This document shows, one piece after another, positions 6,772 to 64,000 of a stretch of DNA of 64,000 bases. The DNA is from Halorarius halobius (GTDB lineage: Archaea > Halobacteriota > Halobacteria > Halobacteriales > Haloarculaceae). Position numbers and translations under genes: made by a program. The DNA is taken from contig NZ_CP101161.1 of NCBI RefSeq assembly GCF_024298865.1, positions 579,227-643,226 on the forward strand, in the 5' to 3' direction. The notes under the pieces were generated by a model. The model saw nothing but the letters and a program-made list of their open reading frames with translations. It did no database searches and had not been told where the DNA came from. Each line of letters starts with the position of its first letter. Within the stretch, counting starts at the first letter, position 1.

Positions 6772-7542
6772 TTACTCCCCCTCCGTGGGCGGCTCACCAC
6801 CCGTCCGCAGGAACGCCTCCACGCGCTCTCTGGTGGCCGCGACCGGGCCGATGACGGTTATCGCGGGCGGTTCGATGCCTTCCTCGTCGCGCACCTCGAC
6901 GATGGTGTCGAGCGTGCCGACCGCGACCTGCTGGTCGGGCCAGGTCGCCCGCTCGACGAGCGCGACGGGCGTCTCGGGGTCCATCCCCTCCTCCATCAGG
7001 ACTCGCGTGTAGTCCGGGAGCCGGCCGACGCCCATGTAGACGACGATGGTGCCGCCCGTCGCCGCCAGCGCGCCCCAGTCGACCGCCGACTCGTCTTTCG
7101 TGGGGTCTTCGTGGCCGGTGACGAACGACACCGAGGAGTTGTGGTCGCGGTGGGTGACCGGGATGCCGGCGACGCCCGGCCCGGCGACGCCCGCGGTCAC
7201 GCCGGGGACGTACTCGAACTCGACGCCGTGGTCCGCGAGATGTTCCATCTCCTCGCCACCGCGTCCGAACACGAACGGGTCGCCGCCCTTCAGGCGGACG
7301 ACCGTCTTCCCCTGCTCGGCGAGTTCGACAAGCCGGTCGTTGGTGTACTGCTGGGAGGTGCGGTCGCCGCCCGCGCGCTTGCCGACGTCCTCGGCCTTCT
7401 CGTCGGGCACTAGCGCCAGTGCCGGCCCCGGAAGCTTGTCGTGGAGCACCACGTCGGCCTCCTCGATGAGCCGTTTGGCCTTCACCGTCAGCAACTCGGG
7501 GTCGCCGGGGCCGGAGCCGACCAGGTAGACGCGCCCGGTCAT
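6772..7542 (-). CDS. cobA: Uroporphyrinogen-III C-methyltransferase
   Basis: The 256-residue protein uses S-adenosylmethionine to methylate uroporphyrinogen III at C-2 and C-7, giving precorrin-2 for sirohaem, cobalamin and the alternative haem route of archaea. It carries the tetrapyrrole methylase fingerprints VGSGPGDPELLTVKA at the N-terminus, VRLKGGDPFVFGRGGEE near residue 82, and the VPGVTAGVAGPGVAGIPVTH region. Its length matches the single-domain SUMT enzymes and it lacks the CysG oxidase/ferrochelatase part. Its ATG overlaps the stop of hemC by four bases, showing translational coupling. Confidence 0.95.
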   Translation of the reverse strand: MTGRVYLVGSGPGDPELLTVKAKRLIEEADVVLHDKLPGPALALVPDEKAEDVGKRAGGDRTSQQYTNDRLVELAEQGKTVVRLKGGDPFVFGRGGEEMEHLADHGVEFEYVPGVTAGVAGPGVAGIPVTHRDHNSSVSFVTGHEDPTKDESAVDWGALAATGGTIVVYMGVGRLPDYTRVLMEEGMDPETPVALVERATWPDQQVAVGTLDTIVEVRDEEGIEPPAITVIGPVAATRERVEAFLRTGGEPPTEGE

Positions 7543-8603
7543 TCCTCGGCGCCGGCCTCGCGTTTCGCCTCGGCGATTAGCTCGTCGGCCCCACGCTCGG
7601 CGAGGTCGGCGGCGAACTCGCGGGCCATCTCGGCGTGGCGCTCGACCGGGATGTCACGCACCTCCCGGACCTCCTCGGTGCCGTCGCGGTCGAGCACCCG
7701 CACGACGGTGTGGACGTACGCGCCCCGGAGCGTCGCGTAGACGCCGATGGGAGCGACACAGCCACCGTTCAGTGCCCCGAGGACGGTCCGCTCGACGGTG
7801 GTCTCGACCCGGGTCCGGGCGTGGTCGACCCGGTCGTGGATGCTGTCGGCGAGGTCGCCGTCGCGAGCGGTGACCGCGAGCGCGCCCTGTCCGGGCGCGG
7901 GGACGAACCGCTCGGCGTCGAGTCGCTGGTAGTCGAGGTGGTGGAGCAGGCCCGCGCGGTCGAGGCCGGCCTCGGCCATCACCATCGCGTCGAACTCGGT
8001 GTCGACCTCGCGTTCGAGCGCACGCCGCTCGATTTCCGCGAGCGCGTCGAACCACGCCTCGACGGACTGCTCGTACGCGCCCTCCCCGTCCTCGCTGTCG
8101 ACGCGGTCGGCGTGCTCCCGCTGAAGCGACGGCGCGAGCAGTTTCTCGATGCGCGTGTCGACGTTGCCGCGGACGGGTTCGACGGTGAGGTCCGGCCGCT
8201 CGGCGAGCAGTTGGGCGCGCCGGCGGAGGCTCCCGGTGCCGACCGTCGCGCCGTCGGGCAACTCGTCGAGGCTCCGGCCGTCGGGTGTCACCAGCAGGTC
8301 GCCCGGGGCGGCCCGCTCGGGGACGCCCGCGACCACCAGGTCGTCGGGGAACTCCGTCGGCATGTCCTTCATCGAGTGGACGGCGGCGTCACAGTCGCCC
8401 TCGAGGACGCGCTCGTCGAGCGCGCGGACGAACGCCCCGGTCTTGCCGAGCCGGTGGACGAGTTCGTCGCGCACGCGGTCGCCCTCGGTGGCTACCTCCA
8501 CGAGCTCGACGGGCCGGCGACGGGTCGAGAGCGCCTCCTGTACCGTCGCGGCCTGCCGAAGCGCGAGCTGTGACCCGCGCGTGGCGAGGCGAATGTCGGT
8601 CAT
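7539..8603 (-). CDS. hemC: Hydroxymethylbilane synthase (porphobilinogen deaminase)
   Basis: The enzyme polymerises four porphobilinogens into hydroxymethylbilane. The reading frame is open further upstream, but homology starts at the ATG at 8603 (MTDIRLATRGSQLALRQA), giving 354 residues. Visible family features are HSMKDMPTEFPDDL near residue 80, GTGSLRRRAQLL near 125, and the cofactor-attachment cysteine in LNGGCVAPIG near residue 290. The protein contains an acidic insertion (about residues 165-185, DRVDSEDGEGAYEQ) compared with bacterial enzymes. It is the first gene of the operon. About 170 bases separate it from the divergent glutaredoxin gene, enough for two promoters. Confidence 0.95.
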   Translation of the reverse strand: MTDIRLATRGSQLALRQAATVQEALSTRRRPVELVEVATEGDRVRDELVHRLGKTGAFVRALDERVLEGDCDAAVHSMKDMPTEFPDDLVVAGVPERAAPGDLLVTPDGRSLDELPDGATVGTGSLRRRAQLLAERPDLTVEPVRGNVDTRIEKLLAPSLQREHADRVDSEDGEGAYEQSVEAWFDALAEIERRALEREVDTEFDAMVMAEAGLDRAGLLHHLDYQRLDAERFVPAPGQGALAVTARDGDLADSIHDRVDHARTRVETTVERTVLGALNGGCVAPIGVYATLRGAYVHTVVRVLDRDGTEEVREVRDIPVERHAEMAREFAADLAERGADELIAEAKREAGAEE

Positions 8604-8772
8604 GTGTCGCCCTCGGCGTCCCACCGTGAAACCCCCTTCGGGTCGGGCGCGATGAACTGCATGCCGCGATAGGAAATCGGCCCCGTGGGGCGTGTCCCAC
8701 CGTTTCGCGCCTGCGCGAACGCGGCGCATCGCCTCGGTACGCCTTTCCGTCCGGCGACCGTAGCCGGCGGCG

Positions 8773-9030
8773 ATGACGCTGGAACTGTACGAACTGGAGG
8801 GCTGTCCGTACTGCGCGAAGGTGAAACAGAAACTCGACGAACTCGACCTGGAGTACGAGTCGCACATGGTGCCCCGCTCGCACGACGAGCGGACCGAAGT
8901 GAAGGAAGTCAGCGGACAGACGGGCGTGCCCGTCCTGGTCGACACCGACCACGGCGTCGAGGGGATGTCCGAGAGCGACGACATCGTCGCGTACCTCGAG
9001 AAGACGTACGGACAGGAAGCGAGCGCCTGA
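8773..9030 (+). CDS. Glutaredoxin-like thiol protein (CPYC)
   Basis: An 85-residue thioredoxin-fold protein with the active site CPYC at residues 12-15 in LYELEGCPYCAKVKQKL. It also has the cis-proline motif TGVPVLVD and the glutathione-site-like SESDDIVAYLEKTYG. Haloarchaea use gamma-glutamylcysteine rather than glutathione, so it probably reduces mixed disulfides with that thiol or serves as a general thiol-disulfide carrier. A paralogue with CPFC lies at 51184-51483. It is divergent from hemC and convergent with hemL. No operon partner is seen. Confidence 0.9.
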   Translation: MTLELYELEGCPYCAKVKQKLDELDLEYESHMVPRSHDERTEVKEVSGQTGVPVLVDTDHGVEGMSESDDIVAYLEKTYGQEASA

Positions 9031-9075
9031 GCCCCGAGCGCCGGGTACTCGGCCGCTGACCGCCGTTTTGCCACA

Positions 9076-9268
9076 AACCTTATTCCCACCCAGTAGCGGG
9101 TTCGTACTGCGAGCGGGACTCGCGAGGGTCACACGCCTGCCTCGCAGGCGGACCCTCTTTCACGTTCGCGATGACGCTCGCGTCGTGCGCCGACATCGCG
9201 TCCCGGGACAGTCGCTCCCGGGCGGACGGCGGCTTCGGCCGCCGTGAGCGGTCTCCCCGCGGGGACCC
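9076..9268 (+). ncRNA. Candidate structured RNA: chain of six stem-loops
   Basis: The gap between the glutaredoxin and hemL ends has no gene but a dense run of hairpins. Paired arms are 9109-9113/9119-9123; 9124-9130/9151-9157 enclosing 9134-9140/9144-9150 with a three-base bulge; 9167-9173/9194-9200; 9202-9208/9216-9222; 9226-9233/9238-9245 closed by a TTCG tetraloop; and 9250-9253 with 9255-9257 against 9261-9267. A TATA-like ACCTTATT (about 9077-9084) lies some 25 bases before the first hairpin on the plus strand. The TTCG loop is also on the plus strand. No known RNA family was recognised. The alternative is a cluster of repeat or terminator hairpins between convergent genes. Confidence 0.35.
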
Positions 9269-9281
9269 ACGACGGCGCCGT

Positions 9282-10628
9282 TCAGAGACACTCCCTGTAC
9301 GCGTCCAGCGTCCGCTCAACGTCCTCCTCGGTGTGGGCATAGGAGACGAAGTTCGCCTCGTACTGGTTCTGCGAGACGAGTACGCCCGCCTCGCGCATCG
9401 CCGGCCGGAACAGCCGCGCGTAGCGGTCCGTCTCCATCCGGCTCACGTCCCGGCCACCCTTCGGGCACTCCTCGAACCGCGGGCAGTCGGGGTTCTGCCG
9501 ACAGCCGTTCGTGCACGTGTCGCCCTCCGCCTGTGGTGGGCTGTCGGCCCGCGTGAACGCCACCTTGAAGATGGAGTCGGTGCCGACGACGGTGTACCCG
9601 GGCGCCTGCTCGGCGACGATGTCGGTCAGCCCCTCCCGGAGTTGGCGGCCGATGTCGTTCACGTGGTCGTACACGTCGTTCTCGGCGGCGAACTTCAGCG
9701 TCTCCAGCCCCGCGGCCATCGTCGCCGGATGCCCCGAGAACGTTCCCGCCTGGAACACCTCGCCCGAGGGGGTGAACTGCTCGACGTACTCCGTCTTGCC
9801 GCCGATGGCGCCGACGGGGAAGCCGCCGCCGATTATCTTCCCGAACGTCGTCAGATCGGGGTCGATGCCGAACTTCCCCTGTGCACACTGGAGGCCGCCG
9901 ACCCGGAACCCGGTGATGACCTCGTCCCAGACGAGGAGCGCGCCCGCGCCCGTACAGAGGTCGCGGAGCGTCTCGTGGTAGCCGTCCACGGGGTAGGCGA
10001 TGCCGGCGTTCGCCTGCACGGGTTCGACGAGCACGCAGGCGATGTCGTCGCCGTGCTCCTCGAACACGCGCTTGGCGGCGTCGGCGTCGTTGAACGGCAC
10101 CGGGAGCGTGTGCTCGGCGAACGACTGGGGGATGCCGTTCGTCGACGGCCGCGGGTGGTCGGCGTCGCCCTCGACGAGCGTCGACTCCTGAGCGCCGTGG
10201 TAGCCGCCCTGCATCACGACCACCTTGTTCCGGCCGGTGACCGCGCGGGCGAGTCGCACCGCCGAGACGGTGGCCTCGGTGCCGCTGTTGACGAACCGGA
10301 GCATCTCGACGGAGGGGACGTGCCGGGCGACGAACTCGGCGTGGTCGACCTCGAGTTCCGTCGGCATCCCGAACAGCGGGCCGTCGGCGACGCGCTTCTG
10401 GACGGCGGCGGTCACCGATTCGGGCAAGTCGTGGCCGAGGAGCAGGGGACCGAGCCCCTGTATCCAGTCGACGTAGCGGTTGCCGTCGGCGTCGACGACG
10501 TGGCCACCGTCGCCCGTGCGGGCGAAGACTGGGTACGGCTGGGGAGCGGCACGCACCGCGCTGTTGACTCCACCGGGGAGGACGGAGAGGGCACGGTCGT
10601 ACAGCTCCCGCGAGCGGTCGTGATTCAT
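9282..10628 (-). CDS. hemL: Glutamate-1-semialdehyde 2,1-aminomutase
   Basis: This PLP enzyme converts glutamate-1-semialdehyde to 5-aminolevulinate, the entry to tetrapyrrole synthesis by the C5 route. The chosen ATG at 10628 gives 448 residues beginning [20 protein letters not shown], the family start; an open extension upstream lacks similarity. The PLP lysine is in [17 protein letters not shown] near residue 264. Near residue 375 there is a Cys-rich insertion with four cysteines spaced C-x3-C-x5-C-x6-C, which is not part of bacterial HemL. The palindrome ACGGCGCCGT just beyond the stop could help termination. Confidence 0.95.
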
Positions 10629-24360: not shown

Positions 24361-24594
24361 GGATGCAGGGCGTCGGTGCGGGCGGTGGTCGACGCAGGCG
24401 GAACGGAGGGCCGGCGTCGGCGGGCGGTACGTGGCTGGTCGCGTGGCCGTGTCTCGACGACGCACGCGTCCGGCCCGCGAGCGTCGCAACTACCGCTATT
24501 CGGCAACTGATACAAAAAGGCGCCGATTTTATTTCGGCTGTTTCTACGCGTATAGAAATTCGCTCTCCGGGGGCAAAAGCGTTGGGGCGGGGGG

Positions 24595-25743
24595 CTACTC
24601 GGGCAGTTCCGGAGGAGGCTGGGTCACCACGTCGATTCCCGAGAAGACGAACGTGGTGCCGTCGTCGACTTCGACGCGGCCGGCCCAGCCGTGGCCGGAG
24701 ACGACCCGCTCGACGACGAGCAGTCCCAGCCCTTTTCGGTCGGTGCCGAAGTCGCCGTCGAACAGCGAGTCGACGATGGCCGGCGGCAGTCCCGGGCCGT
24801 CGTCGGCGACGACGAACCCTTCGTCGGTGCCCCGGACCGTCACCGTGACGCCGTCGCCGCAGTGCTCGGCGACGTTCCGAAACAGGTTCTCGAACACCTG
24901 TTCGAGCCGCGATTCGTCGGCCATCAGCGTCCGGTCGCGCTCGACGGTCAGCGTCGCGTTCGGCGGCGAGACGGTGTCCCAGGCACGCCGGGCGACCACT
25001 CTCAGGTCCACCGGCTCCCGTTCGCCCACGTCCGCGCCCTCCCGAGCCAGCGACAGCGTCTCGGTGATGAGCCGCTCCATCCGGTCGAGCGCGTCCTCGA
25101 CGGTCTCGAGGTGTTCGCGTTGGGGCGGGGACGCCGACTCCGCGACCAGTTCGGTGTACCCCTTCGCGGCCGTCAACGGGTTCCGGAGGTCGTGGGCGAG
25201 CACGCCCGCGAACTCCAGCAGGCGCTCGTTCTGTGCCTCCAGCGCCGCGTAGTGTTTCTGGCGTTCGAGTTCGTAGCCGACCCAGCGGGTGAGCAGGCGC
25301 ACGAACCGCTCCTCGTCGGGACCGAACGGCTCCTCGCGGGGCTCGGTCCCCGAGTAACAGAGCGTGCCGTACACCTCGCCGTCGACCAGCACCGGCGCGC
25401 CGATGTAACACTGCAGGCCGGTCGTCTCCCGCGCGCGGTCGTCGCTGAACGGCGAGTTCCCCGCGTCCGACACCGCGATGAGTTCCTCGTCGTCGACGAC
25501 GTGGCGACACCACGTCACGTCGAGGTCGTGGGTCGAACCAGCGACGTACGCCCCTTCGACGGCCGTCGAGTCGATTATCTCGTACTCGCCGCCGCCCGTG
25601 TACGACAGCACGCCGTAGTCGACGCCGAGACGGTCGCGGCCGACGGTTATCGCCCGCCGTATCTTCTCCTCGATGGGGAGCGTTGGGTCCGCCCCCAGTT
25701 CGTAGAGGTCCTGGAAGTAGTTGGTCGCGTCCGAGTCGCCCAT
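24595..25743 (-). CDS. GAF-domain sensor histidine kinase
   Basis: A 382-residue soluble kinase. Residues about 10-165 form a GAF sensor domain (DRLGVDYGVLSY, STHDLDVTWCRHVV, YIGAPVLVDGEVYGTLCYSG). The H-box is FAGVLAHDLRNPLTAAKGYTEL near residue 185. The N-box is EQVFENLFRNVAEHC, with G-boxes VADDGPGLPP and DRKGLGLLVVERVVSGHGW. It should autophosphorylate on the H-box His in response to a light, redox or small-molecule cue and pass phosphate to a receiver. The single-domain receiver at 28310-28687 on the same strand is a candidate partner. Its own TATA-like sequence lies about 25 bases upstream. Confidence 0.92.
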   Translation of the reverse strand: MGDSDATNYFQDLYELGADPTLPIEEKIRRAITVGRDRLGVDYGVLSYTGGGEYEIIDSTAVEGAYVAGSTHDLDVTWCRHVVDDEELIAVSDAGNSPFSDDRARETTGLQCYIGAPVLVDGEVYGTLCYSGTEPREEPFGPDEERFVRLLTRWVGYELERQKHYAALEAQNERLLEFAGVLAHDLRNPLTAAKGYTELVAESASPPQREHLETVEDALDRMERLITETLSLAREGADVGEREPVDLRVVARRAWDTVSPPNATLTVERDRTLMADESRLEQVFENLFRNVAEHCGDGVTVTVRGTDEGFVVADDGPGLPPAIVDSLFDGDFGTDRKGLGLLVVERVVSGHGWAGRVEVDDGTTFVFSGIDVVTQPPPELPE

Positions 25744-25766
25744 GTCACCGGTGACACACGCTTCGG

Positions 25767-25775
25767 ATTTATCTC
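25767..25775 (-). promoter_or_regulatory. TATA box of the GAF kinase gene
   Basis: On the minus strand AGATAAATC lies 24 bases before the ATG at 25743. It overlaps the end of the glycosyltransferase gene, so the kinase may be transcribed both from this site and by read-through. Confidence 0.45.
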
Positions 25776-27200
25776 TTAGTCGCCGTCGCCGAACCCGGAC
25801 CGCTCCATCGCGCCCCAGGCGTCGACGCCGCGCAGGTACTCGACGAGGCCGTGCCACGCGACGAGTGTCTTCCACTGTCGGTAGCCGAAGTTCTCCAGCA
25901 CGCCGTACCACAGCAGTCGGACCACCTGCCGGGGGTCGTCGTAGCGGTTGAAACTCCAGACCTCGCTGAACACGCCGAACCACGACAGGAACACGCCGAA
26001 CCCGGTCGTCAGCAGGAAGAAGGCGACGAGGAACTCGACGTTGAGGACGCCGAAGTACCACGCCAGCGGGAGTATCAGGTAGCCCAGCCCCTCGATGAGC
26101 GGGCCGAACGTCTCGGCGGCGACGAACATCGGCATGACCAGCGTGCCTACCCGGCCGTACGCGCGGTTGAACAGCATGTCCCGGTGGGCGACGACGGTGT
26201 CGACCATCCCGCGGTACCAGCGGCGGCGCTGGCGGCCGAGCACCCGGCGGCTCGCGGGTACCTCAGTCCACGCGACCGGTTCGGGGATGAAGTCGACGGT
26301 GTACTCGCGGCCGGCGTCCGAGAGATGCCGGTGGAGGCGGACGATTATCTCGAAGTCCTCGGTGACCGTGTCGTGGCGGTAGCCGCCGACCTCCCGGACG
26401 ACATCCGTCCGGAACAGGCCGAACGCGCCGGAGATGAGGATGAGGCCGTTGACGCGGTTGAGTCCCAGCCGCCCCGAGTAGAACGCCCGCAGATACTCCA
26501 TCACCTGCATGCCCGGCAGACCGGTCTTCGGGAGGCCGACCCGCTCGACGACGCCGTCCTCGATGTCGCAGGCGTTGGCGACGCGGACGACGCCGCCGGA
26601 GGCGACGGCCGTGTCCGGCCGTTCGAGGAACGGGCGGACGATCTGCAACAGCGCGTCGCGGTCGATGACCGTGTCGGCGTCGACCGCACAGAACAGCGGC
26701 ATGTCGGTCAGCCAGATGCCGGCGTTGAGCGCGTCGCTTTTCCCGCCGTTGGCCTTGTCGACGACGAGCAGTTGGTCGGTGCTCCGTGACCGGTAGACGT
26801 CGTCGATGGGCTCGCAGGGCACGTCGAACGGCACCGGCGCGTCGACGGCCTCGAGGTCGAACGCCTCCCGCAGTCGGTCCATCGTGGCGTCGGTGGAGCC
26901 GTCGTTGACGACGACCACCTCCAGGTCCGGGTAGTTCAGCGCCAGCATCGACCGGACGCTCTCGACGATGGTCGCCGCCTCGTTGTACGCCGGCACCACC
27001 ACGCCGATGCCGGGGTAGAAGGGGCTGGCGAACCGGCGGAACGGCGGGTCCCACCGGGCCTCGCGAACGTCCTCCTCGAGTTCGAACAGCGCCAGGACGT
27101 GGATACAGAGGTAGAAGACGTTGATGACGGCGTAGTAGGCGACGACGACCACGCCGAACGCGGCCAACCCCCGGAGGAACCAGCCGGCGACAGTCGTCAC
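25776..27200 (-). CDS. Family 2 processive glycosyltransferase
   Basis: From a GTG at 27200 that overlaps the previous stop by four bases, the product is 474 residues. A membrane helix (about 8-35) precedes the GT-A domain with VVVPAYNEAATIVESV and VVVNDGSTDATMDRL. Then come the DxD metal site in FCAVDADTVIDRDAL, the catalytic-base region TVTEDFEIIVRL, and the acceptor motif LGRQRRRWYRGMVDTV (Q/RxxRW). Two or three C-terminal membrane helices follow. This resembles hyaluronan/cellulose-synthase-like polymerases. It lacks a PilZ domain. It is encoded with a HEAT protein and a receiver, suggesting regulated surface polysaccharide. Confidence 0.9.
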   Translation of the reverse strand: MTTVAGWFLRGLAAFGVVVVAYYAVINVFYLCIHVLALFELEEDVREARWDPPFRRFASPFYPGIGVVVPAYNEAATIVESVRSMLALNYPDLEVVVVNDGSTDATMDRLREAFDLEAVDAPVPFDVPCEPIDDVYRSRSTDQLLVVDKANGGKSDALNAGIWLTDMPLFCAVDADTVIDRDALLQIVRPFLERPDTAVASGGVVRVANACDIEDGVVERVGLPKTGLPGMQVMEYLRAFYSGRLGLNRVNGLILISGAFGLFRTDVVREVGGYRHDTVTEDFEIIVRLHRHLSDAGREYTVDFIPEPVAWTEVPASRRVLGRQRRRWYRGMVDTVVAHRDMLFNRAYGRVGTLVMPMFVAAETFGPLIEGLGYLILPLAWYFGVLNVEFLVAFFLLTTGFGVFLSWFGVFSEVWSFNRYDDPRQVVRLLWYGVLENFGYRQWKTLVAWHGLVEYLRGVDAWGAMERSGFGDGD

Positions 27201-28294
27201 GGCTCCACCTCCCTGCCGTGGCGTGCCAGCCGGTCGTAGTCGGCCTGCTCGCGGCTCCAGGCCCACGCGGCCGCGGGCACCTCCGGCGCGTCCGGTCGGT
27301 CCCGCCGGCGGGCCAGCGCGTCGGTGCCCGTCACCAGCGCCCGCGCGTCCGTCTCGGTCGCCAGCGCACCCGCAAGGACCGACAGCGCCCGCTCGTCGCC
27401 CCAGTCGGCGAGCGTCCGGTACACAGCGGCGCGGACCCGTGGTGAAGGGTCGCCCGTCAGCCGCTCCAGATACCGACCGCCACGGAGGTCTTCGCGCCAG
27501 CCGAGCCCGGAGAGCGCACGAGCGCTGGCGGCTCTGACGGCCGCCGACTCGGCTTCCAGCGTCGCCGTCAGCCACGAGATGTCACCGCCGCCGACGCTGG
27601 ATTCGAGTTCGCGACAGACCTCGAGCACCTGCACCAACAGCGACTCCGGCCACGCGTCGGCGCGGGTAGCCGCCATCGAGAGCAGTGCCGCCGGGTCGCG
27701 GCGGGCGACCCGGTAGAGCGTGTCCTGTCCGAACACCGTGAACGGCGCGTCGGTGCCGTCCAGCAGGAGCGTGAGGCCGTCGGCGACCGTCGTCGGCGCG
27801 TCGCTGTCGTGATAGAGGCGCGTGACGGTGGCACGCTCCCTGGGGGTCCGGGGGGTGAAATTCGACGCCCGACAGAGGTCGGGCCGCTGGAGCAAGACGA
27901 GCCACGTCAGCGCTTGCAGGCGGTCGTACTCGCGGCGGCGGTCGAGACGACGCGCCGACCGCGCGGGGATGCCGAGCGCCTCGCCCAGGTCCCGCAGGCG
28001 CTCGGCGTCGCTCCCCTGGAGTTCGCGGAGATACTCGTCGAGCAACGACTCTACCACCTCGCGTTCGAGTGCCGACAGCCCCGCGACCCACGGCTCCCAG
28101 CCGGCGGTCGGGGTGAACACCCGGTCGAGCAGTTCCTCGCGGAGGCGGTCGCGGTGTCGGTCACGGCGGGCCCTCGCCGCCGCGCGGTACACCGAGAGGC
28201 CGACGGTGAGCGAGAACGACACCGTCAGCGCGACGCCCAACACCAGCGCCGCGACGACGAGCGGCGACAGGTCGGTGGGCACGGGGGCCGCCAT
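27197..28294 (-). CDS. Membrane-anchored HEAT-repeat protein
   Basis: A 365-residue protein with one N-terminal membrane helix (about residues 9-35, LVVAALVLGVALTVSFSLTVGL) and a long soluble part of helical repeats. Typical HEAT units are seen near residues 235-345, for example SAAVRAASARALSGLG, SPRVRAAVYRTLADWGDERAL and TDARALVTGTDALARR. Such proteins usually serve as protein-interaction scaffolds. It is in an operon between the receiver (15 bases upstream) and the glycosyltransferase (four-base overlap), so it may link the phosphorylated receiver to the membrane enzyme. That link is inference from gene order. Confidence 0.8.
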   Translation of the reverse strand: MAAPVPTDLSPLVVAALVLGVALTVSFSLTVGLSVYRAAARARRDRHRDRLREELLDRVFTPTAGWEPWVAGLSALEREVVESLLDEYLRELQGSDAERLRDLGEALGIPARSARRLDRRREYDRLQALTWLVLLQRPDLCRASNFTPRTPRERATVTRLYHDSDAPTTVADGLTLLLDGTDAPFTVFGQDTLYRVARRDPAALLSMAATRADAWPESLLVQVLEVCRELESSVGGGDISWLTATLEAESAAVRAASARALSGLGWREDLRGGRYLERLTGDPSPRVRAAVYRTLADWGDERALSVLAGALATETDARALVTGTDALARRRDRPDAPEVPAAAWAWSREQADYDRLARHGREVEP

Positions 28295-28309
28295 CAGCCC
28301 CGGCCCCCG

Positions 28310-28687
28310 TCAGTCATCCAGTTGCCTCCGTACCCGGGCGAGCAGTTCGGTGCTACTGAACGGCTTGGTGACGTAGTCGTCGGCGCCGCGTTCGAACCCG
28401 TCGAGTACCTGTTCCTCGCGGCCCCGGGAGGTGAGCAGTATCACCGGCAGGTCGGAGTCGACCGGCAGTTCTCCCCCGCGTATCATCCGCAGAAGCCCAG
28501 TACCGTCGAGCCGCGGCATCATCACGTCGAGCACCGCCAGCGCCGGCTCGAACCCCGCCTCGAGGCGGTCGGCGGCATCCCGGCCGTCCTCGCAGACCGT
28601 TACCTCGTAGCCGGCGCTCCCGAGCCGGTGGTCGAGCAGTCGTCTGATGGCGTCGTCGTCGTCGACGACGAGCACCTGCTTGCTCAT
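28310..28687 (-). CDS. Single-domain response regulator (CheY-like)
   Basis: A 125-residue receiver domain with no output domain. The acidic pocket is in VLVVDDDDAIRRLL, the phospho-acceptor Asp in ALAVLDVMMPRLDG (near residue 54), the Thr/Ser in PVILLTSRG, and the Lys in GADDYVTKPFSSTELL. It probably acts by protein contact, most likely with the HEAT protein or glycosyltransferase encoded directly downstream in the same operon. The GAF kinase at 24595-25743 may phosphorylate it. Confidence 0.93.
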   Translation of the reverse strand: MSKQVLVVDDDDAIRRLLDHRLGSAGYEVTVCEDGRDAADRLEAGFEPALAVLDVMMPRLDGTGLLRMIRGGELPVDSDLPVILLTSRGREEQVLDGFERGADDYVTKPFSSTELLARVRRQLDD

Positions 28688-28733
28688 CAGTCGTCGGGCG
28701 GTCGCACCCCTGCGGCAAAACGTTGTTCCCGGG

Positions 28734-29690
28734 TCAGTACTCGTCGACGTCGGTCCCCACGGAACAGACGTACTCGCCGGTGGCGACCTGCGGGAGCCGA
28801 CGGCTCCGCCAGAACACGCCCTCGGAGTCGGCGGTCACCTCCGCCTTCGGCTCGCCGAAGACGTCGGTCACCTCGAACAGGGTGTCGCCGCGGGCCACCT
28901 CCTCGCCGAGTTCCTTCTTCAGGACGGCCAGCCCCCCCGACGGCGAGCCGTACTGCTCGAAGCCGGTGGCGCGCACCTGTGGAGTCGGCTCCACGTCGCC
29001 CTCGAGGAAGCCGTAGTAAGTGAGGACGTTCATCACGCCCCGGACGCCCGTCCGGATGGATGTCTCGTCCCAGCCGACGGCGCCGCCCAGTTCCGGGTCG
29101 ATGGTCGGGACGCCGTCGTCGGGGGCCGCACGGGCCAACTGCCCGTCCGGACCCTTCTGGTCGAGGATGTGGCCACAGCCGAACACCTTCGCCAGTTCGA
29201 GACAGTCGCGGTGGAGGCGGTGGCGGTGGCCACAGCGAACGCGCGTCTCGTTTATCATCCGGCTCGTCGACCCCTGGTGCAGGTCGAGCACGAGGTCCGC
29301 GCGAGTGGCGGCGTCGAACGTCGCGGCGGCGATGCGCTCGCTTGCGGTGCCGGACTCGTCGCCGGGGTACGCCCGATTCAGCTTCGTGTCGTCGACCGGG
29401 TTGCGGTGCTCGGCCACCTGGTAGCCGTACCAGTTGACGATGCCGACGACGAGGACGGTGCCCGCCAGTTCCGACGGGTCGAGCCGCGGGACGACCCGGT
29501 GGACGACCCCGAGCCCGTTGAGTTCGTCGCCGTCGGAGACCGCCTGCATGTAGAGCGTCTTCCCGTCGTCGGCGCCGTTGACGACACAGACCGGAAGCGA
29601 CACCTCGGAGCCGTCGCGGGCCTCGCCGACCGGCAGCCGCCCCACGCTCTTCTCGCCGGGGGCGGCACTCGCCGTTCCGAGGCTTGTCAT
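28734..29690 (-). CDS. Succinylglutamate desuccinylase / aspartoacylase family protein
   Basis: The ATG at 29690 gives 318 residues. This is the zinc carboxypeptidase-like AstE/AspA fold that removes acyl groups from N-acyl amino acids. The second zinc ligand is visible in LVLDLHQGSTSRMINETRVRC-like sequence near residue 135. The first site, usually HGDE, reads SDGDELNG here, so the His is replaced by Asp while the Glu remains. A beta-rich C-terminal domain (about 240-318) follows, with EEVARGDTLFEVTDVFG. An acyl-amino acid or ectoine-derivative substrate is possible but unproven. It is a single gene, 46 bases upstream of the receiver on the same strand. Confidence 0.8.
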   Translation of the reverse strand: MTSLGTASAAPGEKSVGRLPVGEARDGSEVSLPVCVVNGADDGKTLYMQAVSDGDELNGLGVVHRVVPRLDPSELAGTVLVVGIVNWYGYQVAEHRNPVDDTKLNRAYPGDESGTASERIAAATFDAATRADLVLDLHQGSTSRMINETRVRCGHRHRLHRDCLELAKVFGCGHILDQKGPDGQLARAAPDDGVPTIDPELGGAVGWDETSIRTGVRGVMNVLTYYGFLEGDVEPTPQVRATGFEQYGSPSGGLAVLKKELGEEVARGDTLFEVTDVFGEPKAEVTADSEGVFWRSRRLPQVATGEYVCSVGTDVDEY

Positions 29691-58831: not shown

Positions 58832-61459
58832 ATGACTAACAATATAAATCGGGGTGGACCGAGGGGGACCGATACGACGACAGACGCCGAGACCGACCGG
58901 CCGCGACTCGACCGCCGGGCATATATGCGGACGCTCGGGGCAGCCAGCGCCGGAATAGGTCTCGGTAGCGGTGGTCTCGCAGCCGGGTTGACCCAGCCGG
59001 CGGCCGCCGTCGACACGGTGCTCGACGATTTCGAAGACGGGGATCTCAGCGAGTACAGCGGCCACACGAGCCGCTACACGGTCCAGGGCACGACCACACT
59101 CGAGGGGGCCCAGACGCTCGAAGCAACCCAAACGTACGGCAAGATCGCCCACGAATCGGCGACGACGCCCCGCGGCTACGAGTACCGCTGTCGAATTATG
59201 GCGGGTAGCGGCAGCGCCGGCAACCCCGGCCTCCTCGTCAGCGCGCAGAGCCCCTCGAATCCCTGGGCCGACTGCTACTACGCGGCGGCAGATGCCGACA
59301 CCGATACGCTGTATCTCGGACGCCGAGCCGGGGGCAGCGGCACCACCCTCGCATCCGCGTCCGTGACGATTAACGAAGGAACAGAGTATCGGCTCGCTAT
59401 CGACCTCGATACGGACACCCTGACGGCCGTCCTGTACGATAGTTCGAACACGGAACTCGCTGCCACGACCGAGGTGACTGACACCACGCACACGGGCGGC
59501 ACGGTCGGATTCTACGGGGGCGGCGGGACACCCGCCTACTTCGATTACGTCGGCCAGACCGCCCTTGCCGAACCGCCCTCGCAGACGGCTATCTTCGAGG
59601 ACTTCGAAACCGGCACGCTCGGTGACGACTACACGTTCGACACGGGAAGTACGGGGGCGTCCGTGGTCGCCTCCCCCGTCTATCACGAGTCGAATGCACT
59701 CGAACTGGCCGGCACCACCGTCGAGATGATCAGCACGCCGGAGGCCCTGACGCTCGCACAGGGGGACTCGATTACGTATCGCGTCCGGGCGACCGGTGGC
59801 GCAAACCTCACGCATTTCACGTATGGCGTCCAAGACCACGGGAATCGCTACTTCGTCCGCGTCGCGTTCGCCGACGACGGGTTCGAACTCCAGCGGTACG
59901 AGGGCGGCTCCTCGACGGATCTGGACGTCACGACCACCTCGAGTCCACTCGCGGCGGACACGTGGTACGATGTCGAACTCGAGTGGAGTGAGGGCGGCGT
60001 GCATACCGCGACGCTGTTCGATCAGTCGGGGACACAGCTCGCGCAGGTGAGCGCGACAGATACGACGTGGGACTGGGGCCACGTCGGCTTCGACGCCTAC
60101 CTCGGGTCGGGCGAAGCCGTCTACTACGATTACCTCACGACCGAAGCGACGCCAGCGTCGTTCCCGCACGTCATCGACGACTTCGAAGACACCGACCTCA
60201 CGGAGGACTACACGTTCGAGAACAACAACGAGTCGGCGGCGACGCTGGTGTCGAGCCCGACCCGGACCGGCGGCCAAGCCTTGGAACTCAGCGGCGCACA
60301 CTGCCATCTCAACGGAACGGCGGAGTTGCCGTACGAGCCAGCGGCGGGCGACGTGTTCGGCGGCTGGGTGCGGGCGAGCTCCGACATCGACGGCTCGCTC
60401 GTGCTCACCTACGGCGTCCAGGACTTCGAGAACCGCTACTACGCGTACGTCGACGTCAGCACGGGGACAATCCGCATCCGGAAGAAGGTCCAGGGGACGA
60501 TCACGACGCTGGCCGAACAGACGGGACTGGGGCTCTCGCCCGATACGTGGTACGAACTGGAGGTGGACTGGCGCACCGACGGCACACACATCTTCACACT
60601 GTACGACACCACCGAGACCCAACTCGGCCAGGTGTCGGTCGCCGACGACCGGACGTGGCAGACCGGCACGGTCGGCTACAACGCTCACGTAGGGAATGGC
60701 GCCAGCGGGTATTTCGACTATGTCTGTATCAAAGAGACGAGTTTGCTCGGTGAGTTCGAGGGCGGCCTCGATGGGTGGTCCTCTGACAGTAGCGTACAGT
60801 TTAGCCGGATGAGTGTCGACGAACAGCCAGCGGCAGTGACGCAGGGCAACGACGTATTGAAGGTGCGTATCGATAGCGATCCGGAGCCAGCCATTCGGAA
60901 CGAGGAATATATCCAGCAGGCAGATCTCACCAGCACGCCGTATCTGGTAGCAGATGTGTTGCCTGCATCCGTGGAAAACTCGGATTCCCCGGTGAAGTTC
61001 CGGTTCGAGTACCACTACTCCAATCCAGGCGGGATCGAGCATTCACCCACCATGAACGTAGACCAACGGTATGGTGGCCGCCTTGGGTGGGATATGAGTG
61101 GATTGAGTACGACCAAGTTGAACTCACCCAAGCGACTGGAAATCGTCTGGTATCCGACCGACCACCCGCCATCGAAGTCGTTCGATTACAACGGTGTTGT
61201 GTATGTCGATAACATCCGACTGACGAGGGAGAGGAATCTGGTAACGAACGCAAGGTGGGCAAGAAAACAACGAGATATGGAGCGAGCATATGGGCCGATG
61301 ACTGATCAGGTAATCACTTCTCAGAACGCAACGAGGCAGGATGGGTATTACGAGTTCAGTAATGGCGGCACAGTAGCATATTATGCGGAGGTCTTACAAA
61401 ACGGGAATATACGCGAAACGTGCGACGGCGACACGTTCGTCTGGGAGGTGTCACAGTAA
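58832..61459 (+). CDS. Secreted multi-domain protein with repeated LamG-like domains and a CBM-like tail
   Basis: An 875-residue exported protein. The N-terminus has a Tat motif in DRRAYMRTLGAASAGIGLGSGG. Three similar domains follow (about residues 65-250, 255-450 and 455-665), each opening with DDFEDGDL-type and DFETGTLGDDYTF sequence and closing with GTVGFYGGGGTPAYFDYV, GHVGFDAYLG or GTVGYNAHVGNGASGYFDYV. These look like jelly-roll, sugar-binding folds. The last 200 residues are different, AT-richer, with VVYVDNIRLTRE as in carbohydrate-binding modules. It is probably a surface adhesin or polysaccharide-binding protein. Its stop overlaps the next ATG by one base. Confidence 0.8.
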   Translation: MTNNINRGGPRGTDTTTDAETDRPRLDRRAYMRTLGAASAGIGLGSGGLAAGLTQPAAAVDTVLDDFEDGDLSEYSGHTSRYTVQGTTTLEGAQTLEATQTYGKIAHESATTPRGYEYRCRIMAGSGSAGNPGLLVSAQSPSNPWADCYYAAADADTDTLYLGRRAGGSGTTLASASVTINEGTEYRLAIDLDTDTLTAVLYDSSNTELAATTEVTDTTHTGGTVGFYGGGGTPAYFDYVGQTALAEPPSQTAIFEDFETGTLGDDYTFDTGSTGASVVASPVYHESNALELAGTTVEMISTPEALTLAQGDSITYRVRATGGANLTHFTYGVQDHGNRYFVRVAFADDGFELQRYEGGSSTDLDVTTTSSPLAADTWYDVELEWSEGGVHTATLFDQSGTQLAQVSATDTTWDWGHVGFDAYLGSGEAVYYDYLTTEATPASFPHVIDDFEDTDLTEDYTFENNNESAATLVSSPTRTGGQALELSGAHCHLNGTAELPYEPAAGDVFGGWVRASSDIDGSLVLTYGVQDFENRYYAYVDVSTGTIRIRKKVQGTITTLAEQTGLGLSPDTWYELEVDWRTDGTHIFTLYDTTETQLGQVSVADDRTWQTGTVGYNAHVGNGASGYFDYVCIKETSLLGEFEGGLDGWSSDSSVQFSRMSVDEQPAAVTQGNDVLKVRIDSDPEPAIRNEEYIQQADLTSTPYLVADVLPASVENSDSPVKFRFEYHYSNPGGIEHSPTMNVDQRYGGRLGWDMSGLSTTKLNSPKRLEIVWYPTDHPPSKSFDYNGVVYVDNIRLTRERNLVTNARWARKQRDMERAYGPMTDQVITSQNATRQDGYYEFSNGGTVAYYAEVLQNGNIRETCDGDTFVWEVSQ

Positions 61460-62469
61460 TGCCCAACAAGACGGAAACGGCGAACGTCGTCACGACCATT
61501 TTGGGGTACGACGAGAACGACCCGCCGGATAGCGTCAACGGAGGATTACGAAGCAGCGCTATTCCGTGGTTATTCGACGAGTGGTTCCACGGCGACTTCG
61601 ATACCGTCCGAGAGCAAAGTCTTACTGATGCTACCGGAACGAAGACGCTCGAAGAGTACACCTCCAGTGAAAATCCATTTCCAGATTGGCGAATCAACTC
61701 AGCTATCGAGATCTCCTTCGATACACCGGACGACAAGACGGTCTCGAACCCGCAGGTCCAGATGACAGATCCGGAAGACCAGACGACTCCGGGCGGGGTA
61801 GCACCGGTCACGCTCGAAGGAGCGCCCGATGAGCCCACCAATCCATTCCGAACTGTCGTTGACTACGACGGTTCGAAGAACTATCAACAGGCGACCGTGA
61901 AAGGTCCGCTGACTGCCGGCCCCGAGAAAGTGGGGCCGATTGAAGGGGTCGAAGGGTACAGAGCGTCGATCATCCTCGGTGGGAGTGATCCTTATCTCGA
62001 ACAGCTCAAAGCGGATGGGAGGACACTGGCATCTATTGCTCCAGGTGCGAACATTCCAAAGATAATAGCCGATTTTATGTTGTTCGTCCCGACGTTTTAC
62101 TCTTTCCTCGACTTCGTCTTCATGGCCGACGGGACGACGCTCGTTCGGGTTTGGGACGCGAGCATGTATCCTGCCCATGCGCTATATGTGGGGGGAACAT
62201 TGGAAGATCAAAACGAGTTTGATGAGGGGGAAGAGTGGGTCACTCAGGGAGATCTCACGCAGCAAGTCGCATTTGACCAGTTTGCGTCAGAGGCAGGTTT
62301 CACTCCATTTACGCCGTTTGACCGGTATGGTTCATGGCTTTACGAGGATACGTTTAGAAATGGGGCACCGCCACATCCGGTGATGGTTCATAGAAAAAGT
62401 GGGACGTCCATCTCTGCACGTTCCGTTGAAAGGGAAGAAACGAATCCACTGTTCCCCACTTCAGTGTAG
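61459..62469 (+). CDS. Unknown protein coupled to the secreted multi-domain protein
   Basis: The ATG at 61459 shares one base with the previous stop (TAATG), giving 336 residues: MPNKTETANVVTTILGYDEND. No signal peptide is evident; one hydrophobic stretch (IIADFMLFVPTFYSFLDFVFM, near residue 210) may be a membrane or core helix. No known family was recognised. It is AT-richer than the core genome. A second, 5'-truncated copy of its N-terminal part is found at the end of the window. The tight coupling suggests it acts with the secreted protein, perhaps in assembly or as a toxin/immunity partner, but this is speculation. Confidence 0.7.
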   Translation: MPNKTETANVVTTILGYDENDPPDSVNGGLRSSAIPWLFDEWFHGDFDTVREQSLTDATGTKTLEEYTSSENPFPDWRINSAIEISFDTPDDKTVSNPQVQMTDPEDQTTPGGVAPVTLEGAPDEPTNPFRTVVDYDGSKNYQQATVKGPLTAGPEKVGPIEGVEGYRASIILGGSDPYLEQLKADGRTLASIAPGANIPKIIADFMLFVPTFYSFLDFVFMADGTTLVRVWDASMYPAHALYVGGTLEDQNEFDEGEEWVTQGDLTQQVAFDQFASEAGFTPFTPFDRYGSWLYEDTFRNGAPPHPVMVHRKSGTSISARSVEREETNPLFPTSV

Positions 62470-62537
62470 TAGGTGTAGATGAAGATTAGATTGATTAATC
62501 GCTAAATTACTATTCATACCCAGATGGACTAATCCAT

Positions 62538-63041
62538 ATGCGTACCCGTCTAATCCTCTGTGTTAGTCTCCTTCTTATCGCCGGGTGTGCTGCCCTCCAG
62601 TTCGATGAAGGGGCTACTCAAGACCGTCCTGTTTCTATTGTTATCAATAATTCGGCGAACGAGACACAAACCTTCGAGGTCTGGGTGGTTGAACTCCCGG
62701 CGACAGTAACAACACAACGGAGTGACGGACTTACTGCGAACTGGTCGATTGATCAAGGAATAGCTACGACATCCTCTGGCCCACATCCGTGGACGAAAGT
62801 TGAGATGCCCGAATCAGCGCGCCTTCACGGGCGAACAATACTCAAACCGGGAGAAGAAAACCGGAGCACTATTTCGGAGTTTAATCGAAATGCGGCTGTT
62901 GTTGTAGTCCTCTATCAGGACCCGAATATAAGCGGCTGGTGGGTGAGTGCAAATTGTGGCGGTCGGGCCTTGGTTGGAGTTGGAGTTTACACTCGCCCGA
63001 GTCAATACGGTGACGCATACGGCTCGTACGGGTGCCGGTAG
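62538..63041 (+). CDS. Lipoprotein, tandem paralogue 1
   Basis: A 167-residue protein with signal LILCVSLLLIAGC (lipobox I-A-G-C). The mature part has VSIVINNSANETQTFEVWVVELP, ILKPGEENRSTISEFNRNAAVVVVLYQD and a tail with several aromatic and Cys residues. It is a beta-sandwich-like lipoprotein of unknown function. It is paralogous to the gene at 63225: NNSAN-x-T-x-TFEVWVV, EEN-x-S-x-I-x-EF and the C-terminal Y-x-C are kept. It is AT-rich with low GC3. Confidence 0.8.
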   Translation: MRTRLILCVSLLLIAGCAALQFDEGATQDRPVSIVINNSANETQTFEVWVVELPATVTTQRSDGLTANWSIDQGIATTSSGPHPWTKVEMPESARLHGRTILKPGEENRSTISEFNRNAAVVVVLYQDPNISGWWVSANCGGRALVGVGVYTRPSQYGDAYGSYGCR

Positions 63042-63224
63042 CGGTGACTCCATCCTCTATTTCGAACGATTTCATTCCCAGACTGGTCCGATCTCGGACG
63101 GAACAACCGCAGGTTGGCTACTCACTCAGATTCCGTCGACCCTTCCGGGGGTTGTCATCAGTCGTTGTACCGTGCGAGTCGATATGCGGCGGCTATTGAT
63201 GACGGTGCTCCCTGAACCGCGATT

Positions 63225-63767
63225 ATGGACGACGGGACAGCCGAATTGAAGCACGTTTTCTCTGCGCTCTGTCTGGGGGTACTTATCGTTCTCTCCGGGT
63301 GTTCACCCCTCACATCGGATAGACCAGCTGGCCAAGAGGGTCCAGTTACACTTTCGGTCAATAATTCAGCGAACGTTACCCATACATTCGAAGTGTGGGT
63401 GGTTGATAGTGAATTAAACAATAGGGAGGTGATTATCCGGAAGAGAGGAGGCGAGATTGATAGAGCGTCACCGGGGCCAGGGCTCAGTAATTACCAACTC
63501 GACGGCGACTATGGGTTCGTGACAGCAATTGAATTACCCCAATATCAGTCCCGTTTTTACAGAAATTATACCCTTAGTCCCGATGAGGAGAACCAGAGTT
63601 CCATTGACGAATTTAAAGATGATTCAACAGTTATCGTTATCATCTACCGTGATAACCGAGTTGTAGCCTTGGTGACTGCCCATTGCGATGACGATCTCGT
63701 GTTTGTCGACGTGACGATGCGTCCATACGGGGCTGACACCGGATACAACTGCGAACCACCGGGATAA
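63225..63767 (+). CDS. Lipoprotein, tandem paralogue 2
   Basis: The ATG at 63225 gives 180 residues. The signal is HVFSALCLGVLIVLSGCSPL (lipobox L-S-G-C); a later start cannot be excluded. The mature part has VTLSVNNSANVTHTFEVWVVD, TLSPDEENQSSIDEFKDDSTVIVIIY and VFVDVTMRPYGADTGYNC. It is a second copy of the lipoprotein family at 62538, at moderate identity. The 183 bases between them have no clear gene. The function is unknown. Confidence 0.8.
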   Translation: MDDGTAELKHVFSALCLGVLIVLSGCSPLTSDRPAGQEGPVTLSVNNSANVTHTFEVWVVDSELNNREVIIRKRGGEIDRASPGPGLSNYQLDGDYGFVTAIELPQYQSRFYRNYTLSPDEENQSSIDEFKDDSTVIVIIYRDNRVVALVTAHCDDDLVFVDVTMRPYGADTGYNCEPPG

Positions 63768-63854
63768 CTGCCGTAACCGATAGAACGTCTGTATCCCACT
63801 CCGCGTGTCGACCGCATTCCCCTGGTCACCCGTCTCGGTTTCCGATGCGATTAG

Positions 63855-64000
63855 CGATACTTCCTTGAGACCCTGGAAGAGTACACTGCCAGTGAAAATC
63901 CATTTCCAGCCTGGCGAATCAACTCCGCCATCGAGATCTCCTTCGACACACCGGACGACAAGACGGTCTCGAACCCCCCGGTCCAGATGACAGATCCAGC
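63855..64000 (+). pseudogene. 5'-truncated copy of the gene at 61459
   Basis: From about 63867 to the window end the sequence is about 90 percent identical by eye to 61643-61776 within the gene at 61459. The reading frame (LEEYTASENPFPAWRINSAI) stays open, but a stop codon (63852-63854) lies upstream and no start codon is present. The first 60 codons are missing. It is probably a gene fragment left by duplication or recombination; the right end is outside the window. Confidence 0.8.

Follow-up and report, generated by a model that had tools for sequence, protein, structure and literature searches.

What does a response regulator that consists of a receiver domain and nothing else control when its gene precedes that of a glycosyltransferase? 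The question is raised by a locus in a 64,000-nucleotide stretch of the high-GC genome of the haloarchaeon Halorarius halobius (NZ_CP101161.1, positions 579,227 to 643,226), the whole of which we refer to as the window. On its minus strand, genes for a stand-alone receiver (REC), a membrane-anchored HEAT-repeat protein and a family 2 glycosyltransferase (GT2) follow one another (28687-25776; hereafter the trio), and a gene for a GAF histidine kinase comes next. HEAT and GT2 are a near-obligate pair that is common to Archaea and many bacteria. We lean, with modest confidence in the chain as a whole, towards a synthase-dependent surface-polysaccharide module in which the phosphorylated receiver would control the GT2 through the HEAT protein. 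The features of the locus are as follows.

28310 to 28687, minus strand: stand-alone REC response regulator, 125 amino acids (PF00072)
28526-28528, minus strand: phospho-acceptor D54 of REC, a position kept, with the conserved Lys, in trio receivers
27197 to 28294, minus strand: membrane-anchored HEAT-repeat protein, 365 amino acids (PF13646)
about 27311-28099, minus strand: predicted cytosolic alpha-solenoid of the HEAT protein, residues 66-328, after the N-terminal membrane helix
27197 to 27200, minus strand: 4 nucleotides (GTGA) shared by the end of HEAT and the start of GT2, stop and start codons overlapping, read from the sequence
25776 to 27200, minus strand: GT2, a putative membrane synthase, 474 amino acids, GTG start (PF13641, 81.6 bits; Pfam and NCBIfam)
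26673-26681, within 26355-26360, and 26217-26231, minus strand: GT2 motifs DxD, ED and QxxRW, respectively
24595 to 25743, minus strand: cytosolic GAF-HisKA-HATPase_c histidine kinase, 382 amino acids, optional fourth gene (Pfam)

The initial annotation described REC, HEAT and GT2 as one overlapping operon followed by a GAF kinase on the same strand. Gene order and common strand stand, and the kinase is where it was said to be (24595-25743, minus strand); the overlap is limited to the HEAT/GT2 joint (4 nucleotides), with gaps of 15 nucleotides between REC and HEAT and 32 nucleotides between GT2 and kinase. The GTGA overlap likely couples translation of HEAT and GT2. The open frames run 5' of the likely starts, to 488 amino acids for the kinase and 599 for the GT2. 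A promoter and terminator scan of 24400-28900, which included no archaeal promoter models, gave a single weak sigma-70-like match on the opposite strand, as well as terminator-like sites 3' of the kinase.

The HEAT-GT2 pair in Archaea and Bacteria

We identified the GT2 (membership at E <= 1e-60) in 63 of 391 genomes drawn from the haloarchaeal class; G001, a same-genus relative, gave no match. HEAT lies directly upstream on the same strand at 68 of the 69 GT2 places, a count in which genome G046, with a match split over two frames, contributes two; the exception is a decayed copy in G037. Conversely, the GT2 adjoins every full-length HEAT place (65/65), where 26 short HEAT matches elsewhere, each covering part of the profile, were not taken as members. 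Among 68 haloarchaeal loci taken, 67 contain the GT2 and 66 have HEAT immediately upstream. Sixty-five of these 67 GT2 loci also have a REC gene immediately upstream, in the same orientation and in the order REC-HEAT-GT2; of the other two, L180 is decayed and L232 is without REC. As a control, we searched 21 loci of more distant haloarchaeal GT2s, 20 of which matched the GT2 profile, and within 1.5-kb flanks these 20 yielded 0 HEAT and 0 REC genes.

Scanning a genome collection with an alignment of the haloarchaeal GT2s recovered loci from many phyla. Of the 400 that were confirmed, the top 80 (36-78% identical) were analysed, a ranking that favours close matches and includes some haloarchaeal loci that repeat the class draw. 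HEAT is present in 76 of the 80: immediately upstream in 74, one gene off in L109 and distant in L096. In three of the loci without it (L041, L050 and L094) the sequence extends little or not at all upstream, and in L083 no HEAT gene was found. Phylum draws, made to avoid the scan ranking, used membership at E <= 1e-80: the Marinilabilia draw has the GT2 in 65 of its 247 genomes, the Rossellomorea draw in 23 of 249 and the Stenotrophomonas draw in 10 of 249. We analysed 100 of the 105 places in these draws, omitting three seeds, one place at a contig start and one that fell within another stretch; all but L343 and L412 (98 of 100) have HEAT upstream. Eight stretches from named records show the pair as well. 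The arrangement is REC-YaiO-HEAT-GT2 in Mesorhizobium ciceri and REC-HEAT-GT2-kinase in Haloarcula halophila, while the Deinococcus, Planococcus, Legionella and Bacteroides stretches have HEAT-GT2 with no annotated receiver in the upstream stretch. The trio is also present in Haloarcula argentinensis (L033).

In two genomes of the Rossellomorea phylum draw, HEAT and GT2 occupy a single open frame (L321, 1381 amino acids; L322, 1011 amino acids). A long chance frame is unlikely at their GC contents of 0.48 and 0.40. Both fusions run from an N-terminal membrane helix through HEAT repeats and a further membrane helix to a GT2 with its own N-terminal helix. Two proteins joined back to back would need this additional helix if the HEAT repeats and the catalytic domain are both on the cytosolic side. 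Hence HEAT and GT2 very probably form a complex, by extension also in the window organism. Upstream of the L322 fusion (8006-10030, minus strand) we observed a protein with ODP metallo-beta-lactamase, GGDEF and REC domains, which might give the module a redox input.

Since the REC-HEAT-GT2 arrangement recurs across Archaea and Bacteria, we conclude that it is not due to chance. An alternative holds that the locus is a recurrently transferred island, which REC joined by an accident of operon transfer and with no functional tie. Its patchy haloarchaeal distribution (63/391 genomes) and its presence on 14 plasmid records agree with such an origin; order kept across phyla and among divergent loci does not, and neither does a REC tree on which haloarchaeal trio receivers cluster. 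On that tree of 187 REC domains, which has few columns and in which near-copies contribute to the clustering, haloarchaeal trio receivers required 3 label changes; all other receivers as a group required 14, against 57.7 in shuffles. We consider the island explanation highly improbable.

Two copies of the trio with equal HEAT scores (L193 and L212) were found on one 525-kb replicon (G387:C2); the second copy has a split kinase and a GT2 match that begins at profile position 50.

The glycosyltransferase and its HEAT partner

The window GT2 carries DxD (D174, D176), ED (E281-D282) and QxxRW (Q324-W328) motifs. Across 112 GT2s, D100, D174, D176, E281, D282, Q324 and R327 are invariant (112/112) and W328 is present in 111. 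A Pfam scan of the 474-amino-acid protein detected no PilZ, no MshEN and no extra domain, and the earlier description of the enzyme as having DxD and R/QxxRW motifs but no PilZ domain is thus borne out. The AlphaFold2 (AF2) model (predicted local distance difference test score, pLDDT, 93.1; predicted template modelling score, pTM, 0.92) has a fold like those of hyaluronan synthase (HAS) and BcsA, with three C-terminal helices. Its GT-A domain, followed by membrane helices, superposes on Chlorella virus hyaluronan synthase (8snc_A; Z 28.9, root-mean-square deviation (rmsd) 3.2, 389 residues aligned) and on E. coli BcsA (9fnn_A; Z 25.6, rmsd 3.4, 376 aligned). The model supports a membrane synthase of the HAS/BcsA class, and motifs and fold together suggest that the enzyme polymerises.

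The nearest NCBIfam model is that of PgaC/IcaA (TIGR03937; 130.3 bits, E 8.8e-38). We rejected an assignment as the poly-N-acetylglucosamine (PNAG) synthase PgaC/IcaA, whose cut-off is 422.3 bits, and as a bacterial cellulose synthase (TIGR03030; 53.5 bits against a cut-off of 699.1, and no PilZ). The absence of a C-terminal MshEN domain argues against an NfrB-type synthase.

The top structural match is PcManGT, titled a mannosyltransferase (Z 31.6, rmsd 3.0, 337 residues); because it scores above HAS and BcsA, the fold alone is no proof of polymerisation, a point that tells against a polymerising enzyme. Furthermore, BcsA and HAS have more membrane helices than the three C-terminal ones of our model. 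Both observations would suit a GT2 that transfers a single sugar to a glycoprotein or lipid carrier, in the manner of dolichol-phosphate-sugar enzymes, with HEAT as an assembly platform and no polymer made. We regard this as quite unlikely, given the near invariance of QxxRW and ED, the closest NCBIfam model, the superposition of HAS and BcsA over 376-389 residues and the genes found beside the pair in bacteria.

Specifically, a TPR/YaiO-type outer-membrane protein is encoded near HEAT-GT2 in several diderm members (L078, L072, L060, L080, L083 and L096), and TPR without YaiO in L065, L099 and L076; chosen proteins were scanned, and these counts give no rate. The GT2 is fused to a C-terminal sulfatase-superfamily domain, perhaps a polymer-decorating transferase, in L313, L317 and L320, and a sulfatase-domain frame lies just downstream of the GT2 in L106 and L101. 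A weak polysaccharide-deacetylase match occurs near the pair in L083 and L109, and the Legionella copy is adjoined by nucleotide-sugar dehydrogenase and epimerase genes. Barrels, sulfatase, deacetylase and nucleotide-sugar neighbours are what one would expect around genes for a secreted polysaccharide. The Planococcus copy (L244) is adjoined by CotH, polyphosphate-polymerase (VTC) and DUF4956 genes, and genes of these kinds also adjoin Gram-positive Pel loci, according to the portion of PMC7112168 available to us. Separately, large proteins of 707-1093 amino acids with one N-terminal membrane helix and no Pfam match are encoded beside the pair in some bacteria (L088:7350-10628, L067:7414-10632, L048:1865-3985), that of L048 resembling a glycoside hydrolase by eye. 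In the Halorubrum GT2 of L007 (G052; minus-strand frame, 2916 to 781), repeats resembling DGGFVWTTDPSxGVG occur in a long C-terminal tail that the window GT2 does not have.

The HEAT protein was recognized by HEAT_2 (PF13646, 37.4 bits; cut-off 27.7) and by its AF2 model (mean pLDDT 93.3, pTM 0.85), in which a helix at residues 7-59 is followed by an all-helical alpha-solenoid. A fold search returned generic solenoids, that is, designed HEAT-like and armadillo/importin proteins, and no specific structural relative stood out. The N-terminal membrane helix is found in 140 of 142 HEAT homologues, and in 130 of those 140 Lys and Arg are more abundant after the helix than before it. We predict that the HEAT repeats are cytosolic, as positive residues lie on the C-terminal side of the helix.

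The receiver, the kinase and a proposed mode of control

The window receiver matches PF00072 (90 bits) with no other Pfam domain over its cut-off, in line with the initial claim that it has no DNA-binding output, and it retains D54 and K108. Among trio receivers (n=114), the acceptor Asp is kept in about 96% and the conserved Lys in 98%; in those of the phylum draws the figures are 66/72 and 67/72. Of the 100 phylum-draw loci, 72 have a same-strand REC gene upstream, and so, within 2.6 kb, do 53 of the 73 collection-scan loci with complete HEAT and GT2; in L042 and L047, REC adjoins HEAT on the opposite strand. At the receiver place, 13 bacterial loci encode REC-GGDEF proteins, of which 12 have lost the GGDEF signature as judged by a profile that was itself made from 5 of the proteins counted, a GG(D/E)EF-like signature being found only in L086. 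Because the REC beside HEAT remains while the GGDEF signature is lost, the receiver is the constant part.

In a comparison of distances over 160 triples, HEAT and GT2 correlate with r 0.90. The partial correlation of the response regulator with HEAT given GT2 is 0.29, and with GT2 given HEAT 0.16; the corresponding values are 0.31 and 0.18 in bacteria and 0.43 and 0.41 in haloarchaea. The chain order REC-HEAT-GT2 fits this co-divergence weakly, since HEAT distances saturate and neighbouring genes share history, which limits the support that partial Mantel comparisons lend.

The kinase is more variable. A full kinase of the window type follows the GT2 on its own strand in 15 of the 67 haloarchaeal GT2 loci and on the other strand in 15, and precedes it in 1; in 5 loci the kinase is split, partial or weak, and 31 have none. 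By coordinate comparison, 34 of 42 orthologue places are beside the trio and 8 are not. Broken kinases accompany an intact trio in G291 and G296. In G018, REC, HEAT and most of the GT2 are gone and the kinase is intact (72% identical); the deletion scar there (L173, G018:C3:109000-123000, about 6880-7020) retains about 33 C-terminal GT2 codons before the kinase. Thus, conservation of all four genes in order, as first envisaged, applies to REC-HEAT-GT2 (65/67 haloarchaeal loci) and not to the kinase, and we rejected the four-gene cassette as a conserved unit, given that kinase presence and orientation vary and that the cassette holds only in some relatives. The adjacent GAF kinase probably feeds the window receiver, to judge from its adjacency.

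The most economical reading is a chain from REC to HEAT to GT2, in which we infer the REC-HEAT contact, the direction of control and the export of a polymer. It is the most economical because it accommodates the co-conserved order, the cytosolic HEAT repeats, the HEAT-GT2 fusions and a receiver with an intact phospho-acceptor and no DNA-binding part. The GT2, of the hyaluronan, cellulose or PNAG synthase type, would make the polymer and pass it across the membrane. The HEAT protein would be its obligatory partner, with the membrane helix beside the synthase and the solenoid close to the catalytic domain. REC would be phosphorylated by a histidine kinase (probably the neighbouring GAF kinase in this case, others elsewhere) and may then dock on the cytosolic HEAT solenoid and switch synthesis on or off, the solenoid altering either GT2 catalysis or channel gating. 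The receiver would take the place held in known systems by cyclic di-GMP (c-di-GMP) with PilZ, MshEN or PgaD.

Several observations weigh against this chain. A same-strand upstream REC is missing in 28 of the 100 bacterial draw loci, and L232 is an intact haloarchaeal HEAT-GT2 pair without one; the pair therefore does not need REC everywhere. REC-HEAT fusions were sought and not found. Many loci with an intact trio lack a kinase like that of the window or have a broken one. HEAT sequences diverge strongly (10-25% identity between domains), which leaves a conserved docking face hypothetical. Alternatively, HEAT-GT2 may be the machine and the receiver a phosphorelay intermediate or phosphate sink, similar to Spo0F or a CheY sink, that acts elsewhere, with synthesis controlled by expression or other regulators. 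The loci without an upstream REC (28/100 in the draws, 20/73 in the collection scan), the lack of fusions and the phosphorelay-like hybrid kinases with their own REC directly upstream in L313-L316 would all agree with such a role. It sits less easily with a REC that keeps its place beside the pair in 65 of 67 haloarchaeal loci, in contrast to the variable kinases, with the persistence of REC beside HEAT in REC-GGDEF proteins whose GGDEF signature is lost, and with partial co-divergence that favours REC-HEAT over REC-GT2. Overall, we consider a relay or sink role unlikely, if plausible, and prefer control of the GT2 through HEAT.

Whether the module represents a widespread, unnamed class of synthase-dependent secretion systems in Archaea and Bacteria, with a phosphorylated stand-alone REC as a direct allosteric ligand via HEAT, is in our judgement finely balanced. 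If it does, aspartyl phosphorylation would have the role that c-di-GMP plays in the cellulose, PNAG and Nfr systems, and the bacterial REC-GGDEF hybrids, with their mostly degenerate signatures, would mark a passage between both modes. Phospho-signal control of an exopolysaccharide synthase would become directly testable.

Elsewhere in the window, GC content falls to 0.585 and 0.514 within 60001-64000, against about 0.70 in the remainder, possibly marking a mobile or foreign stretch. An 875-amino-acid frame at 58832-61459 matches an SO2946-like C-terminal domain.

Comparison with known synthase-dependent systems

The module GT2 resembles BcsA and hyaluronan synthase in its predicted fold of catalytic domain plus membrane part and in its catalytic motifs. 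Unlike them, it has no PilZ, shows 14-19% identity to the HAS and bacterial BcsA chains among the structural matches listed, and has no BcsB seen beside it. PgaD is a small membrane partner encoded beside the PNAG synthase. The likeness to PgaC/PgaD (IcaA/IcaD) lies in the nearest family model, TIGR03937, and in a partner gene beside the synthase; the module GT2, however, scores far under the family cut-off, and its partner is a HEAT solenoid rather than PgaD.

A further parallel is E. coli NfrA-NfrB-YbcH, which, in the part of PMC8669469 consulted, combines a processive-type GT2 bearing DxD/TED/QxxRW with a diderm TPR outer-membrane barrel, and whose synthase is under post-translational control by a local signal, as we propose here. 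NfrB differs in having its own c-di-GMP-binding MshEN (same portion of PMC8669469), whereas the module GT2 ends after the membrane helices. A separate HEAT subunit stands in the place of MshEN, and the signal protein encoded with it is a receiver.

We found no study of a REC-HEAT-GT2 module among open-licence PubMed Central (PMC) papers, where the HEAT-GT2 pair appears only in gene lists. Specifically, the excerpted gene list of NELoc-2 of C. perfringens (PMC2879425) gives a 377-amino-acid HEAT protein followed by a 466-amino-acid 'chitin synthase' GT2 (CP4_0467-CP4_0468), the same pair by description only. They are listed there without a mechanism and with no receiver in the listed stretch, and CotH and VTC genes lie alongside, as in Planococcus L244. 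The pair occurs in another gene list as well, in the portion of PMC11677781 available; in PMC10434189 a HEAT protein is listed in a different context, and an analogous system is found in PMC10374906. The candidate polysaccharide machine spans the Marinilabilia, Rossellomorea and Stenotrophomonas draws and the haloarchaea, with no function given in the open-licence papers found.

Archaeal two-component systems, as surveyed in the sections of PMC5847659 consulted, are rich in stand-alone REC proteins and have no OmpR-type or GGDEF regulators; in some archaeal lineages output-less receivers are the prevailing kind, and few of their targets have been identified. The trio receiver is like these REC-only proteins, which are expected to act by protein-protein contact (PMC5847659, same sections). 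It is unlike them in that we propose a specific conserved target, so that one output-less archaeal receiver gains a concrete candidate. Overall, the module is probably a variant of synthase-dependent polysaccharide systems, apparently new, in which HEAT and a receiver would stand in the regulatory place.

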